A stretch of DNA of 20,853 nucleotides, from IMG/VR virus record IMGVR_UViG_3300028176_000230, positions 1 through 20,853 of that record. One strand, 5' to 3'. This DNA is from a virus. The notes under the pieces were generated by a model. It searched no databases, had not been told where the DNA came from, and saw only the letters and a list, made by a program, of their open reading frames with translations. Of the stretch, positions 3,294 to 20,853 are shown piece by piece. The position numbers and the translations under genes are program-made. Position 1 is the stretch's first letter, and each line of letters begins with the position of its first letter.

Positions 3294-5093
3294 TCAAAAG
3301 GTCTCCACCACAGGCTTTGGATTTCGGATTTCCGGCGGGGGTTGTTCGGGCAGGGTCAAGCCGAGTTGGTCGAGCAGTAGCTGGTGAACCTTCTCGGGCC
3401 TGGTGTAGCGCTTCATCCGCAGTTCGCGGCCGTCGGTGGCGGGGATTGTCACATCGAGCATCTGGATCCCGCTCATCCGCTCCAGCACGCTGCGGGAACT
3501 CAGGCCGGTTGCCGCCTTCTTGTTGTATTGCTCAAGGGTGACGTGCAGGCAGTAGGCGAGGAAGCTGATGAAGACGTGTGCTTCAATGCGTTCGTCGAGC
3601 TGGTGAAAGACCGGACGTAACCCGAGGTCGCCCTTGAGTGTGCGGAAGCTTTCTTCGATGCGCACGAGGTTGATGTAGTTGCGCCACAGTTCGGCGGGGT
3701 CTTCTCCTGTTAGGTTGCTGCGAAGCAGATACTGGCCTTCGTGGCGGCGGGTGGCTTTGAGCTTCTCGCGATCCAGTTCGATGCGGAAGGTCCCGGCGGT
3801 GACTGGCGCTGCAGATGCGGGAAGATGAAGGATCACGAGCCGGTGGGCGGTGCGGCCGGCTTTTTCTTTGGCCGCACCAATGGCGAGCAGCAGTTCATCG
3901 CGAGTGAGGCGGTCGCGCTTTTGGAGTTCTTTGAGGCGCGCCCAGTAGGCTTTGAGTTTTTTGCGCCGCATCGCACTCTCCTTGCCGCGGCGGGGCAGGC
4001 TGCGGGCCAACACGTAGAGTTCGCCGTCGCGGTGCAGGAGTTTGACCTGAACGTCGTCTTTGACCTGCTGCCAGTCCTTGGTGGCGAGGTCCTTTTCCAG
4101 TTTGGTTAGGCGACCTTTCGGGGTGCCTACGAGGTAGCGCACGGTGGGGTCGGCATGGCGCATCTGTTCGAGGGTTTCTTCGGTGGGGATGCCGCGATCC
4201 ATGATCCAGGTGCGCCGCTCTTTGCCGTAGCGGCCGGTGATTTTCTTGAGCATGCCGCCCAGCGTGGTTTTGTCGGAGGTGTTGCCGCGCATGACTTCGT
4301 AGCCGATGGGCAGGCCGTCGGGGGTGATGATGAGCGCGATGACGATCTGCACGCAGTCGGGACGCTTGTCGCGGCTGTAGCCGAAGGCTTTGAGGCGGCT
4401 GGCTTCGGTGACCGGACCGTTGGCGTCGACCTCGAAGTAGGTGCTGGTGAGATCGTAGAGAAGGATGTCATAACAAGCTCCGAAGAGTCCGGCCCAGCGT
4501 TCCTTGAGGTGGGCGAAGAGGGCTGCGCGATGGACTAACAGACGGTCGTGACAGCGATAGAGGGTGTCTATGGCCGCGAGCCGGAAGTCGTCGTCGAGCA
4601 GGTCGGCCATGGCACTGCGGTCGAACCAGGAGCGGTGAAGGCTCCATTCGCTGCCAGGGTCGAGCAGGCGATAAACGACGAGGGTTTTGAGCACCTTGAG
4701 CCAGGGGGTGCCTTTTTGAGAGTCGGGCAGGAGCGGTTGCCAGAAGGAATCGAGATCGAGGCGATTCCAGAGTTCCAGAGCGAGCCAGCAGCCGCCCCAT
4801 TGGCGTGGACGGGCCAGTTCGATGTGGGCGAGCCGGAGTTGGAGCGTTGGATGTTTGAGTAGAGGGTCGGGCGTGCGATCCTCTGGGAAAAGATGAATCT
4901 GGCGGGTGTGGTCGCGTTCATCGACGGCTTCGATGGCACGGGTCCAAGCGGCGTGGTCGCTGTCGTTGATCTCGCCGAGATAGAGCAGGGTTTTCTGAAC
5001 GGATCGGCCACCTGTTACGCGGCGGTTTTCCACGACGCTCCAGTAGCGGTGCTCCTTGCCGTCTTTGAATCGTTTGTTCGCACGCAAAAACAT
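3294..5093 (-). CDS. IS1634-family (IS4 superfamily) DDE transposase
   Basis: This is a full-length 599-aa cut-and-paste transposase. The start at 5093 (MFLRANKRFKDGKEHRYWSV) is the type of N-terminus usual for this family. RNase H-fold catalytic positions can be assigned as Asp214 (LLYDLTSTYF), Asp299 (WIMDRGI) and Glu480, with Lys487 in RIEESFRTLKGDL. A large insertion lies between the second Asp and the Glu, as in IS4-type enzymes. The C-terminal HVFISFLAYCL segment is also family-like. No frameshift or premature stop is seen, so the enzyme is probably active. The gene is on the phage operon strand, so prophage late transcription could read into it; the hairpin at 5173-5192 lies just upstream. 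Confidence 0.94.
   Translation of the reverse strand: MFLRANKRFKDGKEHRYWSVVENRRVTGGRSVQKTLLYLGEINDSDHAAWTRAIEAVDERDHTRQIHLFPEDRTPDPLLKHPTLQLRLAHIELARPRQWGGCWLALELWNRLDLDSFWQPLLPDSQKGTPWLKVLKTLVVYRLLDPGSEWSLHRSWFDRSAMADLLDDDFRLAAIDTLYRCHDRLLVHRAALFAHLKERWAGLFGACYDILLYDLTSTYFEVDANGPVTEASRLKAFGYSRDKRPDCVQIVIALIITPDGLPIGYEVMRGNTSDKTTLGGMLKKITGRYGKERRTWIMDRGIPTEETLEQMRHADPTVRYLVGTPKGRLTKLEKDLATKDWQQVKDDVQVKLLHRDGELYVLARSLPRRGKESAMRRKKLKAYWARLKELQKRDRLTRDELLLAIGAAKEKAGRTAHRLVILHLPASAAPVTAGTFRIELDREKLKATRRHEGQYLLRSNLTGEDPAELWRNYINLVRIEESFRTLKGDLGLRPVFHQLDERIEAHVFISFLAYCLHVTLEQYNKKAATGLSSRSVLERMSGIQMLDVTIPATDGRELRMKRYTRPEKVHQLLLDQLGLTLPEQPPPEIRNPKPVVETF
3300..3315. repeat. Internal direct repeat of the IS, copy 1
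   Basis: The 16-mer GGTCTCCACCACAGGC recurs exactly at 5143-5158. Here it encodes the end of the transposase (PVVET before the final Phe). Confidence 0.85.
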
Positions 5094-14117: not shown

Positions 14118-14732
14118 TCACGCGACAGGATTGCTGTCCTTCCCGCATTGGCGTACCTTGGGCTGAGTGTTAGAATGGTGATCTGAACACTGCTCTGATG
14201 ATGTCGGAAGAGATAGCGTGGCGGGTGATGCTAGCGGTGTCGTGGATATTGAGCTCCGCCATGACCCTCTGGCGGCGTTTTTCTCCGGCGTGTCGTCCAT
14301 GGACTTGGCCATGCGTTGGTGATGGTTGTGTCGCTTGGTAATGCACGAGCTGAAGAACTGTCTGCCTTGGTAAACCTCACGTATCGCCCGTGCCAAATGT
14401 CGCGCGTCGGTCTGTTTGACCATATAGCCCGTCGCGCCCGTGGCCATGGCATGCTCTACGTAGGCATCTTCGCAGTGCGCGGAGAAGATGATTACCCTGA
14501 TGGTGGGGTTGGCGTGGAGAATCTGCCGTGTCGCTTCCAGGCCATTGAGCATTGGCATGGCAATATCCATGACGACTACACTTGGACCGAGCTTGGCGGC
14601 CATCGTCACCGCTTGGCGGCCGTTCTTCGCCTCGCCGACAACTTGGATGTCAGCTTCTTGTTGCAACATGGCCCGCAGCCCTTCGCGGACAAACAAGTGG
14701 TCATCAGCCAACAGGACGGTGATTGGGTTCAT
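14118..14732 (-). pseudogene. Decayed NarL-type response regulator
   Basis: The receiver domain (residues 1-120) is well kept: Asp10/Asp11 acidic pocket, phospho-acceptor Asp56 in VVVMDIAMP, Ser84 at the end of strand 4, and Lys106 in GYMVKQ. After FSSCITKRHNHHQ (about 127-139), the expected LuxR-type DNA-binding domain is missing and replaced by Ser/Thr-rich shadow sequence. The tail of that domain survives in another frame (14283-14170: RQRVMAELNIHDTASITRHA), a typical NarL-family C-terminal segment. An internal deletion removing the recognition helix region and shifting the frame explains this. The open frame could still yield a receiver-only protein. It lies alone between phage lysis and head genes with no kinase nearby. 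Confidence 0.8.
14170..14283 (-). pseudogene. Out-of-frame remnant of a LuxR-type HTH domain
   Basis: Thirty-seven codons ending in TAA read EKRRQRVMAELNIHDTASIT, followed by RHAISSDIIRAVF. This closely fits the last helices of NarL/FixJ regulators (consensus of the type EKHRQRLMxKLNIHDTA). The frame differs from that of the receiver domain upstream. It is evidence that a complete regulator once existed here. Confidence 0.75.
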
Positions 14733-15489: not shown

Positions 15490-15648
15490 TTACTTGCCGG
15501 TGCGGGGTTCGATCACGATTTCGACTCGGCCGTCGGGCATGAGCTTGAGCATGCCGAACTTGTTGGAGATGCTGCCGCTCACGGGAGGGGGAGTCGTGCA
15601 GGCGGAAAGCAGCAGGGACAACGTGGCGAGAAAGATGATGGTTTTCAT
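15490..15648 (-). CDS. Small phage lipoprotein (possible spanin-type subunit)
   Basis: This 52-aa protein begins with ATGA overlapping the large terminase stop. MKTIIFLATLSLLLSAC is a lipoprotein signal with lipobox LSAC (Cys17), followed by TTPPPVSG and a short, charged mature part ending EPRTGK. A lipidated, proline-containing peptide just before the endolysin is the usual position and form of an outer-membrane spanin (Rz1-like), although no Rz-like inner-membrane partner is seen. The lipoprotein signal is clear; the spanin role is inferred. It also implies a Gram-negative-type host. Confidence 0.75.
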   Translation of the reverse strand: MKTIIFLATLSLLLSACTTPPPVSGSISNKFGMLKLMPDGRVEIVIEPRTGK

Positions 15649-17471
15649 GGTTCCCCGTCCGGGGTGTCAACCGGATCAGGGCTGGCCGCAGCCTCCCGCC
15701 CGATGATCTTGAGCATGGTGGCCGCGGTGACCTGCATGGACTCGCAGTCTAACAGGTGGTTCGGTCTTGATCCGATTTGCTCCCACAACCACTTGCCGCC
15801 CTTCTTGATCCGGTGCTCGCTTTCCATCTGGGCGAGATAGTCGTCGTCGATGTCGTCGGGCACTTCCCACACCGGGCCGTTGTCGCGGTCCTGGTTGCGT
15901 CGTAGGCGGGCGAGCGTGTCCTTGATGTTGAGGTTTGACCAATAGAACACCGAGCAACTCTGGCCGCGACCCAACACCACCTTGCGGCGCGGCGAATAGA
16001 ACCGCTCGATGGATTTCCGGCCCTTGATCTTGTGGGTGAAGGTGGCTCGTTTGTCGCCCATGAGGGCAGTCCATCCGTGTGCCGCACACTCGCGATACAC
16101 ATCGTAGGTGGCGTGACCCGCGTCCACGAAGACGAGATTCGGATGAATGCTGAACCGCTCCTGAATAGTCTCCACGTCGGTGTAGGTGAAAACCTTCTCG
16201 TTCCAGATGAGGCGACTGGATCCGTCATCGGCCCATGCTCGAACGACAAGGAACAAGTGGTCGATCTGGCAATCCACCGTGAGGATGCGCAGCGGGCAGA
16301 CGGATGGCTCACCAGGAGGCACGATCCGCCCCGCGGCATCGACGCCCGCCTCGCCGTCCCATGTTTCCCCCTTGAGGTAGCCGCCTGGCACGATCTCCAA
16401 TTTATAGTCCTCCAGATACTCGCGCCATGCCAACGCCAACCGCTTTTGATAGAACTGCTGGATGAGCGACACGTCACCACGGCGGGCAGCGGCTTTGGCG
16501 CGAAGGTATAACTCGGCCAGCCGCCCCCAACTCATGGCGCACAGTGCATTCCAGTGAAACCCGGCGTTTTCCTTCGGTGCGTTCGGATTGGTGACCAGAT
16601 AGCGGCCCGATAGATTGAGTTCGCGGCGCGTCCGGTCACTGTCGTCGAAGTAGTGGTTGCACGATGCACAACGCATGATGGTGGTTTCCCGGACTCGTTG
16701 AAAATTCCACTCGCCGTCCTCGTCGCGGGCGTCCTTGCTCCATTCGACCTGTTCCCATTTGAATGGCTGGCGGTGATGGCAGTGCGGGCAGGCGAATGTC
16801 CACTCGCGCATGTCGGTTGCTTCATGCTTGCGGTGGGTGTCGTCGTCATCCTCGCCGCCCTGGCTCATGAACAGGCACTTGCCCAGCCAACCGAACGCGG
16901 TGACCCGCGCCTCAGCTTCCGCCATGTGTCCCTGCGGCCAACGCCACGTTTCGTCCCCGATGAGCCAGCGAATTGAGCGGCGCTGGAGGTTGGTTTTGTT
17001 ATGGGCACCCAACACCCACAAGGTCATGCCATTGGCGAAATGCACGGTGGCAAGGCGTCGCTTGTGCCGGTTGGCCGGATAAAGACTCCTGACCGGCGGG
17101 CATTCGTCGAAAAGTTTCTGCAACCGGCTTTCGCTCTGGTCCTTGGCGTCGTCGTCGGTTTGGTCGAGCCACAGGGCCGGGCCGGGCAGGTTGGCGATGA
17201 TATAGGCGACACCAAGTTCGCCGACGCTGGTTTTCCCGCTCTGGATCGCGGCGATGATGCTCACCAGGCGGATCTTCGGATCGACCAGAGCTTCCATCGG
17301 TTCGCGCATCCACGGCGAGTTGCCCGAACGAAACCGCCCGGGGATCGGCGAGTATGGGATCGAGGTGATATGATCCTCACACCACGCCCACGGGGGCCGA
17401 CGGTCGGGCGGACGCCAGGCATCGCGCCAGATGCGTTCGAGTTTTTTCCGTGCTGGTTCGACTGTCTTCAT
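15645..17471 (-). CDS. Terminase large subunit, GpA family
   Basis: This 608-aa packaging ATPase/nuclease starts at 17471, overlapping the small subunit stop in ATGA. The N-terminal motor has Walker A AAIQSGKT (74-81, Lys80) and a Walker B-type region ending in IGDETWRWP (171-179, Asp173/Glu174). A zinc-ribbon-like insertion has CPHC (228-231) and CASC (268-271). The C-terminal nuclease part contains acidic strands ILTVDCQIDHL and NLVFVDAGHAT. Length and layout match lambda gpA-type terminases. It pumps phage DNA into the prohead and cuts it at the packaging site, with the small subunit and portal as partners. Confidence 0.93.
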   Translation of the reverse strand: MKTVEPARKKLERIWRDAWRPPDRRPPWAWCEDHITSIPYSPIPGRFRSGNSPWMREPMEALVDPKIRLVSIIAAIQSGKTSVGELGVAYIIANLPGPALWLDQTDDDAKDQSESRLQKLFDECPPVRSLYPANRHKRRLATVHFANGMTLWVLGAHNKTNLQRRSIRWLIGDETWRWPQGHMAEAEARVTAFGWLGKCLFMSQGGEDDDDTHRKHEATDMREWTFACPHCHHRQPFKWEQVEWSKDARDEDGEWNFQRVRETTIMRCASCNHYFDDSDRTRRELNLSGRYLVTNPNAPKENAGFHWNALCAMSWGRLAELYLRAKAAARRGDVSLIQQFYQKRLALAWREYLEDYKLEIVPGGYLKGETWDGEAGVDAAGRIVPPGEPSVCPLRILTVDCQIDHLFLVVRAWADDGSSRLIWNEKVFTYTDVETIQERFSIHPNLVFVDAGHATYDVYRECAAHGWTALMGDKRATFTHKIKGRKSIERFYSPRRKVVLGRGQSCSVFYWSNLNIKDTLARLRRNQDRDNGPVWEVPDDIDDDYLAQMESEHRIKKGGKWLWEQIGSRPNHLLDCESMQVTAATMLKIIGREAAASPDPVDTPDGEP

Positions 17472-18073
17472 GGTTCCTGATGGAGAATGGAAAGCACCTC
17501 GTCGATGGCGCGGCGGGCTTCCTCCTGGATGCCGGTGGCGTCGAGCCCTGATAGGATGGGCGGCAATTCCTGCTCGAACTTCTTGCGGAGCATCGACGTT
17601 GCCTGCGCCACGAACTCGGTCCAGATCTGCCGGACCTCCTCGACGGCCACATAGTCGCCACGCCGGATGCCAAGGCGCAGTTCCCTTTCTTCCACCTCTG
17701 CCAGCAGCTTGCGGGCCTTGAGCGAGGTTTCGATGTCGGCGGCATCCTGTGTTGCAGGCTCGCCACCCTTGAGGTCATGACGGCGCATGAACTCACGCCA
17801 CGCGGCCACATCATGCGACCCGTTGGCGGCGGCCTTCGGCGCGTCCTTGCGCTTGTTCCATGAATACAACGATTGGCGGGCGATCCCGAGCACGGCGGCA
17901 AGTTCGACATAGCTGGCTGCCGTGGTTGGCGCGGGTCCGGTGCCAGTGGCCATCGTTTGCAGCATCGTCCGTTCGGTGCGCGTCAGTTTGCCCCCCTTCT
18001 GCACGCGACCGACAAGGTTCGCGAAGTCGCGGGTGAGCAGTTTTTTGGCAATGTCGGGGGATACGGCATCCAT
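17468..18073 (-). CDS. Terminase small subunit (Nu1-like)
   Basis: This 201-aa protein lies directly upstream of and overlapping the large subunit. Residues about 54-80 (YVELAAVLGIARQSLYSWNKRKDAP) form a helix-turn-helix of the winged-helix Nu1 type, used to bind the cos/pac site. The middle (112-135) is a long charged helix (KARKLLAEVEERELRLGIRRGDYVAVEEVRQ) typical of Nu1-type proteins, where the GDYV segment recurs. The C-terminal part probably contacts the large subunit. The start at 18073 gives the expected size. Confidence 0.85.
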   Translation of the reverse strand: MDAVSPDIAKKLLTRDFANLVGRVQKGGKLTRTERTMLQTMATGTGPAPTTAASYVELAAVLGIARQSLYSWNKRKDAPKAAANGSHDVAAWREFMRRHDLKGGEPATQDAADIETSLKARKLLAEVEERELRLGIRRGDYVAVEEVRQIWTEFVAQATSMLRKKFEQELPPILSGLDATGIQEEARRAIDEVLSILHQEP

Positions 18074-18848: not shown

Positions 18849-19628
18849 ATGAGCATTCCCGTGCATTGCGCCCACACCCGGCTTGTCGATCCGAACACGC
18901 TGAAACCCAACCCGGCCAACCCGAACCGCCACAGCGCCCACCAGATCCAGCTTCTTGCGTCGATCATCCAGGAGCAAGGGTGGCGTAATCCCGTCACCGT
19001 GTCCAATCGCTCGGGGCTGATCGTCCGCGGCCACGGTCGGCTGGAGGCGGCATTGCTGATTGGCTGCGAAACGATTCCCGTGGACCAACAGGACTACGCC
19101 AGTGAGGCTGAGGAACTCGCCGATTTGCTGGCCGATAACCGCCTGTCGGAACTGGCCGAACTCGACGAGGACGACCTGCGGAAGGTGTTGCGCTCGATCC
19201 AGGATGCGGACCCGGATTTCGACATCGAACTGACCGGCTTCATGGAAGACGAAATCCGCAAGCTGATGGACGACGACGGCAAGCCAGAGGACGAGCTTGA
19301 AACCATTCCCCGGATGGAATGCCAGGCATTCGAGACGCACGACTACCTCGTGTTCATGTTCCACGACCTGCGCGACTGGATGCAGGTGCTCCAACTGATG
19401 GGCGTTCACGAGGTTGACTACTCAATCAACCGCAGAACCAAAAAAATCGGCATCGGCCGTGTGCTTCATGGAAAACGACTCATTGAACTCTGCCGCCGCG
19501 CCAGCCTGGCCGGAACTCCGCCCGTTGAAACTCCGTCTGGTGATCCTGTCGCGCAGCCGGAGCCGCTCGATCACCAGCCACAAGCTGTTTCCGACGGCGA
19601 CTCTCCTCGTTCCCGCAAGCGAGGCTGA
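18849..19628 (+). CDS. ParB/sulfiredoxin-domain protein of a phage DNA-modification module
   Basis: In this 259-aa protein, residues 10-110 form a ParB-type domain: LKPNPANPNRH (18-28), the GHGR box (61-64) and an acidic patch near DLLADNRLSELAELDEDD (about 88-105). The second part (110-200) is mixed and includes a charged ELTGFMEDEIRKLM helix. The tail (about 215-259) is Pro/Ser-rich and probably disordered, and it overlaps the start of the next gene in another frame. ParB-domain proteins of this phage type commonly accompany DNA methyltransferases or base-hypermodification enzymes and may act as ATP-dependent or phosphotransfer-type enzymes or guide factors. The exact reaction here is unknown. 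It does not look like a chromosome-partition ParB. Confidence 0.85.
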   Translation: MSIPVHCAHTRLVDPNTLKPNPANPNRHSAHQIQLLASIIQEQGWRNPVTVSNRSGLIVRGHGRLEAALLIGCETIPVDQQDYASEAEELADLLADNRLSELAELDEDDLRKVLRSIQDADPDFDIELTGFMEDEIRKLMDDDGKPEDELETIPRMECQAFETHDYLVFMFHDLRDWMQVLQLMGVHEVDYSINRRTKKIGIGRVLHGKRLIELCRRASLAGTPPVETPSGDPVAQPEPLDHQPQAVSDGDSPRSRKRG

Positions 19629-20259
19629 GCATTACTCCCACACCGGGCTGGAGATCGAAACCATCCCCGACGAGATCGCCGGCATCAGCGCCGTTAGGAA
19701 CTGGGTGCTTCGGCGTTTCAAGGAGGACGCCATCGTCATGCTCGACGATGATATTTCCGCCTGCGTCTGCATGGTCAGCTTGCGCTGCCGCCGCCTCTCC
19801 GTGGTGGAAACCATCGCCATGCTGGAAAACTCTGCATGGTGCGCCCGCGGGGCCGGTGCCCGGTTGTTCGGCTGGCACCAGCGCAGCGACCCCCGGCTCC
19901 TGCAACGCAACGACCCGTTCGGGGTGAACCACTGGGTCGGCGGAGCGGTCGGAGTTGTGCGCGATGAACACGGCGGAGTGCCGAAGTGGGATGAGCTGCT
20001 CAAGTGCAAGTGCGACATCGACGCCACGTTGCAGGAACTCATGGACAACCGGCTCGTCTGGAACGAGGCGCGATTCTGTTTCGTCCAGGAGCGCGACAAG
20101 AACCTCGGCGGCAACAGCCTGTTCCGCAGCGAGGAACGCATCGCCACCGAGAAGCGCTACCTCAAGCGCAAGTGGATGGCGCACATCCGCATCGAAACCT
20201 ACAAGAGCCAGGACCGCGTGGCGATGGATGCACCCCGCCGCCAACCGGTGAAGCTGTGA
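19468..20259 (+). CDS. GT-A-type glycosyltransferase, TET-associated (TAGT)-like
   Basis: From the ATG at 19468 this is a 263-aa protein; a TTG at 19414 in the same frame would add 18 residues. The first core strand is LRLVILSRS (22-30), then TSHKLFPTATLLVP and IPDEIAGISAVRNWVL (66-81), then the metal-binding acidic run in IVMLDDDIS (89-97, DDD at 93-95). Later NHWVGGAVGVVRDE and CDIDATLQ suggest the acceptor or catalytic side. This motif order resembles the TET-associated glycosyltransferases that add sugars to 5-hydroxymethyl bases in phage DNA (family recalled, not searched). The overlap with the ParB gene is at least 160 bases. An alternative is another GT-A enzyme acting on a phage or host surface. 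Confidence 0.75.
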   Translation: MENDSLNSAAAPAWPELRPLKLRLVILSRSRSRSITSHKLFPTATLLVPASEAEHYSHTGLEIETIPDEIAGISAVRNWVLRRFKEDAIVMLDDDISACVCMVSLRCRRLSVVETIAMLENSAWCARGAGARLFGWHQRSDPRLLQRNDPFGVNHWVGGAVGVVRDEHGGVPKWDELLKCKCDIDATLQELMDNRLVWNEARFCFVQERDKNLGGNSLFRSEERIATEKRYLKRKWMAHIRIETYKSQDRVAMDAPRRQPVKL

Positions 20260-20316
20260 CAAATGGCGTTCAATACTGCTTTCACCTTGTGTGCCAAACC
20301 GCTAATCTAGCAGACG

Positions 20317-20853
20317 ATGAGTTATCACTTAAACACCAAGCGCGGATACAGCTTCCCGGCAGTTTCCAGCGCGATGCAGAAGGGAATCCGGCGCGGTGAC
20401 GCGAAGCTGGCCGGTTATTGGGCGCTCGAACTTTGGACCAGCGGATTTGGCCAGTATGTCTGGCGGCGTCTGCTGACCGTGAGTGCGGAGGACTGTTGGG
20501 GCATCCTCACCCAGGAGATCAAGGCGCTCCACGACAGCTACACCGAGATCAACCGCAACACCCCGAGCAAAACGCCGAAAGGCCGCATCTTCATCTCCAA
20601 GGCGGTGATCCTGCTGTGCCTCGCCAAGAAAAGCCGCGACGCCGACCACCTCCAGAACTTCGTCTATGACCAGCAGGCCGGGCTGGAACCCGAAACCCTG
20701 ACCGACGAACTTGAACAGGCGGGCGAATATATCCCCATCCCCGATTACGCCTATGACTGCCACACGCCGCAGGGCCGCAAGATGGGCAAGACCAAGGCCG
20801 AGTTCTTCCGCGCCGAGCAGGACGCGCTGTCGCCCTTCATTCCCGGCCTCTTC
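20317..20853 (+). CDS. MgsA/RarA C-terminal-like protein (3' end beyond window)
   Basis: The frame opens at the ATG at 20317 after a 57-base AT-rich gap and is open for 179 codons to the window edge. Residues 15-60 (AVSSAMQKGIRRGDAKLAGY, then WALELWTSG and YVWRRLLTVSAEDCWG) resemble the C-terminal region of MgsA/RarA AAA+ proteins, where a helical pair reads like KSIRxGDxxAALYWLARMLE and RRLxxxASEDVG. Near the visible end, IPDYAYDCHTPQGRKMGKT also fits that family. The ATPase core is not present before this start, so it would be a stand-alone C-terminal domain, perhaps linked to phage replication or fork processing. The match is from memory and should be treated as moderate. Confidence 0.6.
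   Translation, partial: MSYHLNTKRGYSFPAVSSAMQKGIRRGDAKLAGYWALELWTSGFGQYVWRRLLTVSAEDCWGILTQEIKALHDSYTEINRNTPSKTPKGRIFISKAVILLCLAKKSRDADHLQNFVYDQQAGLEPETLTDELEQAGEYIPIPDYAYDCHTPQGRKMGKTKAEFFRAEQDALSPFIPGLF

Follow-up and report, generated by a model that had tools for sequence, protein, structure and literature searches.

Phage DNA glycosylation requires, as far as we know, a base that already carries a hydroxyl group, and we know of no characterised DNA modification of the TET-associated glycosyltransferase (TAGT) type that does without an enzyme making this hydroxylated acceptor. The idea that a ParB-domain protein, a TAGT and a TET/JBP dioxygenase belong together reportedly comes from a 2013 NAR paper on TET/TAGT operons. 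In phage T6, the TAGT places a second glucose on glucosyl-hmC (PMC13216743), and its gene adjoins that of the dCMP hydroxymethylase. According to a 2026 paper, 288 of 753 phage genomes have a solitary TAGT, without the alpha- and beta-glucosyltransferases, and the functions of these enzymes have yet to be established (PMC13216743). Another system against which the present locus can be set is the fusion of a ParB domain to a DNA methyltransferase (phrog_498). Three of five annotated ParB-methyltransferases that we inspected, those of TPDSL_ph1, Javan108 and ct3Oc712, lie between or shortly before the terminase genes, and the other two, from Lagaffe and Shimadzu, lie near the end of a linear record together with a sigma factor.

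The stretch of DNA analysed here, which we call the window, is a linear IMG/VR fragment of 20,853 bases from a phage of Verrucomicrobiota bacteria, and its right end falls inside the gene for a protein resembling the MgsA/RarA C-terminal domain (MgsA_C). On the minus strand, the left 18 kb carry a lambda-type head, tail and packaging block that includes terminase GpA, the portal and the small terminase subunit, and three plus-strand genes run divergent from the last of these. The features that concern us are:

15645 to 17471, minus strand: terminase large subunit (TerL), GpA type (PF05876, PF20454)
17468 to 18073, minus strand: terminase small subunit (TerS; phrog_57), divergent neighbour of the ParB-glycosyltransferase pair
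18849 to 19628, plus strand: ParB N-terminal-domain protein, 259 residues (phrog_498, phrog_620, weak PF02195)
19468 to 20259, plus strand: TET-associated glycosyltransferase (TAGT), GT-A fold (PF20691, phrog_842)
20317 to 20853, plus strand: stand-alone MgsA/RarA C-terminal-like protein, with its 3' end beyond the contig (PF12002, phrog_16866)

A first-pass annotation, made from the sequence alone, had described a module of these three domains running divergent from the packaging genes; the positions and strand of TerS and TerL confirm the layout, and profile matches support all three domain calls. Elsewhere on the minus strand, the head/packaging block contains a response-regulator receiver-domain protein (PF00072, 93 bits; window 14118-14732), an odd location for such a gene, and a 599-residue open reading frame that looks by eye like an IS1634-type transposase (window 3294-5093) sits between a tape-measure-like gene and other tail genes.

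By family and predicted fold, the glycosyltransferase is a genuine TAGT. The window protein matches PF20691 at 30.1-30.4 bits, above the cut-off of 27.5, over its N-terminal half only, and phrog_842 (beta-glucosyl-HMC-alpha-glucosyltransferase) matches it over nearly the full length (E 2e-9). All 28 aligned members of its family match PF20691 and no other glycosyltransferase family in hmmscan, and the enzyme of L297, a phage that bridges to more distant loci, reaches 50 bits over positions 1-204 of the 205 in that profile. Alignment of the family to T6-type TAGT with hhalign gave 98.0-98.7% (E 3e-13 to 3e-16) over 215-227 columns. An AlphaFold model built on a wider alignment (mean pLDDT 81) found its best named matches in BFVD among TAGT and beta-glucosyl-HMC-alpha-glucosyltransferase proteins (TM 0.65-0.71), with GT2 proteins at about 0.4-0.55; an earlier, poor model (pLDDT 60), built on a narrow alignment, likewise ranked TAGT proteins first. 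The enzyme has in common with T-even TAGTs (T6, PF20691) the family, a full-length profile match, the GT-A fold and the GIS/GIA..R, (D)DD and GG[CN]...R motifs, which include MLDDD at residues 91-95 and GGN..FR in the window protein. It differs from T6 in its surroundings, since the window lineage lacks the hydroxymethylase and has instead a ParB gene that overlaps the glycosyltransferase. The earlier description of the enzyme as TAGT-like with an MLDDD motif is therefore upheld, and the capsular or teichoic-acid assignment that had been named as its alternative is ruled out: the profiles place the enzyme in TAGT, PF20691 is the sole family matched, and the model lies closest to TAGT.

The closest family of the neighbouring ParB-domain protein is that of the ParB-DNA methyltransferases. 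It matches phrog_498 (E 1e-39) and phrog_620 (E 1e-34) strongly. Of the features of a ParABS partition ParB, which has an HTH domain, a ParA partner and parS, Pfam recognised in it nothing beyond a weak PF02195 (ParB_N), at 18.4 bits under a cut-off of 26.3. The phrog_498 alignment takes in the ParB part only (window residues 4-149 against profile positions 29-172 of 633), and no fused methyltransferase domain is present in the window protein. PADLOC likewise matched it only to the ParB part of methyltransferase models (MTase_II) and returned no match for the glycosyltransferase or MgsA_C in its defence-system scan, and on these results we rejected a reading of the locus as a defence system. 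The window is thus like the fusions of TPDSL_ph1, Javan108 and ct3Oc712 in its ParB domain and its terminase-proximal site, but where they carry a fused methyltransferase it has a glycosyltransferase encoded by its own gene, which overlaps that of ParB. Amidoligase genes occur near the ParB-methyltransferase of TPDSL_ph1, and the operons of the window lineage contain an amidoligase too. Because the ParB domain is closest to those of the ParB-methyltransferases, and because these are terminase-proximal in three of the five cases, we propose that the ParB-glycosyltransferase pair may fill the same functional slot, with the glycosyltransferase replacing the methyltransferase.

The two genes of the pair are physically interleaved. 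The open reading frame of the glycosyltransferase opens at 19414 and ends at 20259, with its likely start at the ATG at 19468; this start lies inside the ParB gene and creates an overlap of 161 nt (window 19468-19628), an arrangement seen in 67 of 93 relatives. The ParB protein consists of a core at about residues 4-157, a conserved 'KIGIGRVLHGKRLIEL' segment up to about residue 207 and a tail of some 50 residues encoded over the start of the glycosyltransferase. Third-position variation within the overlap (0.152) is below that in glycosyltransferase-only sequence (0.246) and tracks the glycosyltransferase frame, so ParB seems to have been extended at this end by overprinting. In the bridging phage L297 there is no such tail, and ParB stops right at the glycosyltransferase start with a 4-nt overlap.

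Conservation of the pair extends far beyond the window. ParB and the glycosyltransferase are adjacent in all 109 testable relatives, a terminase gene lies within 3 kb in 99 of 100, and more than 100 relatives retain the arrangement. Judging by its dN/dS of about 0.06 (median 0.057, 72 comparisons), the glycosyltransferase is under strong purifying selection, and this value together with the retention in more than 100 relatives excludes a chance association. Besides many viral relatives, the family occurs at 21 bacterial loci, all in Verrucomicrobiota genomes (Akkermansiaceae, Verrucomicrobiaceae, Prosthecobacter, Chthoniobacter), one of them a prophage in the isolate Chthoniobacter flavus Ellin428; the plasmids searched gave no match to the glycosyltransferase. 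We found a tyrosine integrase and replication genes on three long contigs and also at the C. flavus locus, which identifies these Verrucomicrobiota relatives as temperate phages. The nearest near-complete relative of the window has a glycosyltransferase 96% identical to that of the window, in a set where viral contigs may be incomplete.

More distant relatives do carry the dioxygenase. In L298, L299 and L300 the gene order is ParB-ParB-TAGT-TET/JBP-TerS-TerL-portal (we assigned TerS, TerL and portal by eye, using sequence and gene order), with profile scores of 73 bits for TAGT in L298 and about 49-50 bits for Tet_JBP in all three, and these loci support the earlier claim that ParB beside a TAGT marks a TET/JBP neighbourhood. 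As in the window, ParB lies immediately upstream of the TAGT gene and overlaps it, and TerS and TerL are adjacent; in contrast, the window lineage lacks both TET/JBP and the second ParB and has MgsA_C instead. In a small glycosyltransferase tree, of few rows and long branches, the TET-less enzymes fall on one side of a branch with support of 96/94. This distribution, with TET present in distant relatives and missing from the window lineage, is what would be expected if the locus were a decayed remnant, in which TET has been lost and the pair is kept for a packaging role of ParB while the glycosyltransferase is inactive. Nevertheless, the low dN/dS, the retention of both ParB and the glycosyltransferase in all testable loci, and the invariance of DDD, D183, D185 and GG214-215 across the aligned TET-positive and TET-less enzymes make such decay highly improbable.

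The absence of TET from the window lineage is seen in its relatives, since the window record itself ends to the right of the MgsA_C start. Tet_JBP was absent from ten window-lineage records, two complete Microbacterium phages, five host genomes and the bridging phage, with three control records positive. A dCMP-hydroxymethylase/thymidylate synthase (PF00303) was found in none of the phage records tested, where the T6 gene was detected as a control, and the records searched for a phage C5-methyltransferase yielded nothing beyond a fragment of 28 residues, interrupted by a stop, close to one contig's end. Other 2OG oxygenases (PF13640, PF05721) gave no match in searches in which few controls responded, and very divergent oxygenases may escape profile searches. 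The suggestion that a TET, methyltransferase or hydroxymethylase gene lies just to the right was not borne out, as other genes are seen in the 40 relatives that extend 6 kb or more in this direction, and for the relatives we reject any such gene to the right of MgsA_C on the basis of the profile searches. That the extended locus yielded no modification genes in many relatives counts against a TET-type module, and the first-pass annotation had itself named this outcome as a refutation. What survives of the original hypermodification reading is the ParB, TAGT and terminase context, and what falls away, in the records searched, is TET/JBP, C5-methyltransferase and hydroxymethylase; DNA modification by another route is possible, and the ParB/terminase context favours it.

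The genes that do occupy the right-hand side in these 40 relatives are an amidoligase (38), a glutamine amidotransferase (GATase; 36), F18 (33), an AAA gene (32), a DNA ligase (28) and RadC (4), and no modification enzyme was recognised among the further right-side genes tested. The amidoligase (PF12224) and the class-II GATase (PF13522) that follows it form a conserved pair downstream of MgsA_C (L005:12624-14187, and relatives). Since both are missing in L101 they appear to be accessory, and their absence from L101 and from the Microbacterium phages disfavours them as the missing partner. Farther along L005 (15876-18551, minus strand) is a gene, possibly for cargo or for receptor binding, whose product of about 890 residues combines MBG and FGE-sulfatase (C-type-lectin-like) domains; it lies at a site whose genes vary among relatives. 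The operon also contains F16, F18 and F24, conserved genes without an assigned family. These three, along with the TAGT identity and the DNA-linked context, are consistent with a more conventional version of our explanation, in which DNA is glycosylated on an acceptor supplied by a conserved but unrecognised phage enzyme, for example the product of a small gene, or by a host enzyme. No candidate for this role is common to all TET-less lineages, however, which share ParB, the glycosyltransferase and MgsA_C alone, bar a weak tape-measure-like match; the L101 locus dispenses with amidoligase and GATase, Tet_JBP occurs in none of the five host genomes, and we judge this version quite unlikely.

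Nucleotide-sugar genes are also present in these phages. An epimerase occurs in five of seven long Verrucomicrobiota contigs, and in the Microbacterium phages a UDP-glucose dehydrogenase-like gene directly follows the glycosyltransferase. Such genes would suit an enzyme that glycosylates a protein (capsid, tail or terminase) or a host surface glycan, with ParB as an unrelated DNA-binding protein of packaging or regulation, and so would the lack of a DNA-hydroxylating enzyme in any TET-less relative and the occurrence of the GT-A fold in protein and glycan transferases; a GT-A enzyme with DDD could act on either kind of substrate. We nonetheless consider this unlikely, as the enzyme is nearest in sequence and fold to TAGT and not to GT2-type cellular enzymes, it is invariably coupled to a ParB domain like those of the ParB-methyltransferases, and homologous loci are TET-positive.

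The third gene of the module is an unusual partner. The window MgsA_C product, 179 residues up to the contig end, begins at the C-terminal domain; it matches PF12002 at 27.2 against a cut-off of 27 and phrog_16866 at E 5e-59. Its likeness to RarA/MgsA is confined to this domain and is weak (PF12002, 27 bits; PDB 3bge, 2r9g), and in Pfam no AAA+ ATPase domain is fused to it; instead, an RFC-like AAA protein is encoded by a gene of its own farther along the operon. In L228 (5239-6374) an RFC-like AAA gene is immediately 5' of the MgsA_C gene, which suggests a RarA-like protein split over two genes. MgsA_C is found within 6 kb of the pair in all 81 testable relatives and is not directly next to it in L228, L241 and L245. 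The order in L245 is MgsA_C-F16-amidoligase-GATase-F18-ParB-GT-TerS-TerL, and in L241 and L297 it is ParB-GT-TerL preceded by a TerS named by eye and followed by MgsA_C. From these rearranged loci (L245, L241/L297 and L228) it follows that the pair is tied to the terminase and that MgsA_C is a mobile companion. The stand-alone domain remarked upon in the first-pass annotation is thus invariably associated with the TET-less branch, near the pair throughout and able to move.

That the three genes belong together as a unit is best supported by phages that are otherwise almost unrelated. Microbacterium phages of cluster EC (Quhwahvirus) have the order ParB-GT-UDP-glucose dehydrogenase-like-MgsA_C, just upstream of the terminase on a circularly permuted map (PMC7302621); in the linear record the pair lies near the end, like the ParB-methyltransferases of Lagaffe and Shimadzu. 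These phages are lytic and infect Actinobacteria, their glycosyltransferase is 27% identical to that of the window, and nearly no other genes are common to the two groups: the comparison with Verrucomicrobiota phages returned ParB, the glycosyltransferase, MgsA_C, a weak tape-measure-like match and, in reverse frame, a single match at chance level. That MgsA_C is the third gene common to such unrelated phages, and within 6 kb wherever testable, disfavours it as a chance neighbour. In a further phage, Arthrobacter phage KellEzio (L247:8935-16986), genes for MgsA_C, for a ParB-domain protein and for GT-B-type glycosyltransferases are dispersed across 8 kb, and a methyltransferase is annotated nearby.

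We conclude that the ParB-glycosyltransferase pair is, on balance, probably a phage DNA-modification unit of the ParB-TAGT kind, linked to the terminase and belonging to a branch without the TET/JBP dioxygenase, and that, as far as sequence can tell, this branch most likely glycosylates phage DNA near packaging. In our model, the TAGT, a metal-dependent GT-A enzyme by family, fold and intact DDD motif, would move sugar from a nucleotide sugar, and the ParB-domain protein would recruit the enzyme to phage DNA or slide it along. The acceptor would be a phage DNA base, modified before or during packaging, such that the injected genome could resist host restriction; we infer the DNA acceptor and the counter-restriction role from homology to T6 TAGT, the TET-positive relatives and the position beside the terminase. 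Since the searches turned up none of the known hydroxylases or hydroxymethylases, the acceptor may be made by an unrecognised phage or host enzyme, or the TAGT may use a kind of acceptor that has yet to be described. As for the stand-alone RarA C-terminal domain, its probable role, tentatively assigned, is to link the unit with DNA or with the replication-fork machinery. A bolder proposal is that the system needs no hydroxylated base supplied by a known enzyme: ParB would load a TAGT that sugars phage DNA either at an acceptor arising by a new route or directly at an unmodified base, and the RarA C-terminal domain would be indispensable to it. We regard this as doubtful.

A ParB-TAGT branch that is conserved and widespread yet has no recognised source of a hydroxylated base would imply either a hidden new route to modified DNA or TAGTs that act on another substrate. 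As the branch is found both in cultured Microbacterium phages and in the prophage of the cultured Chthoniobacter flavus Ellin428, this question is directly testable.
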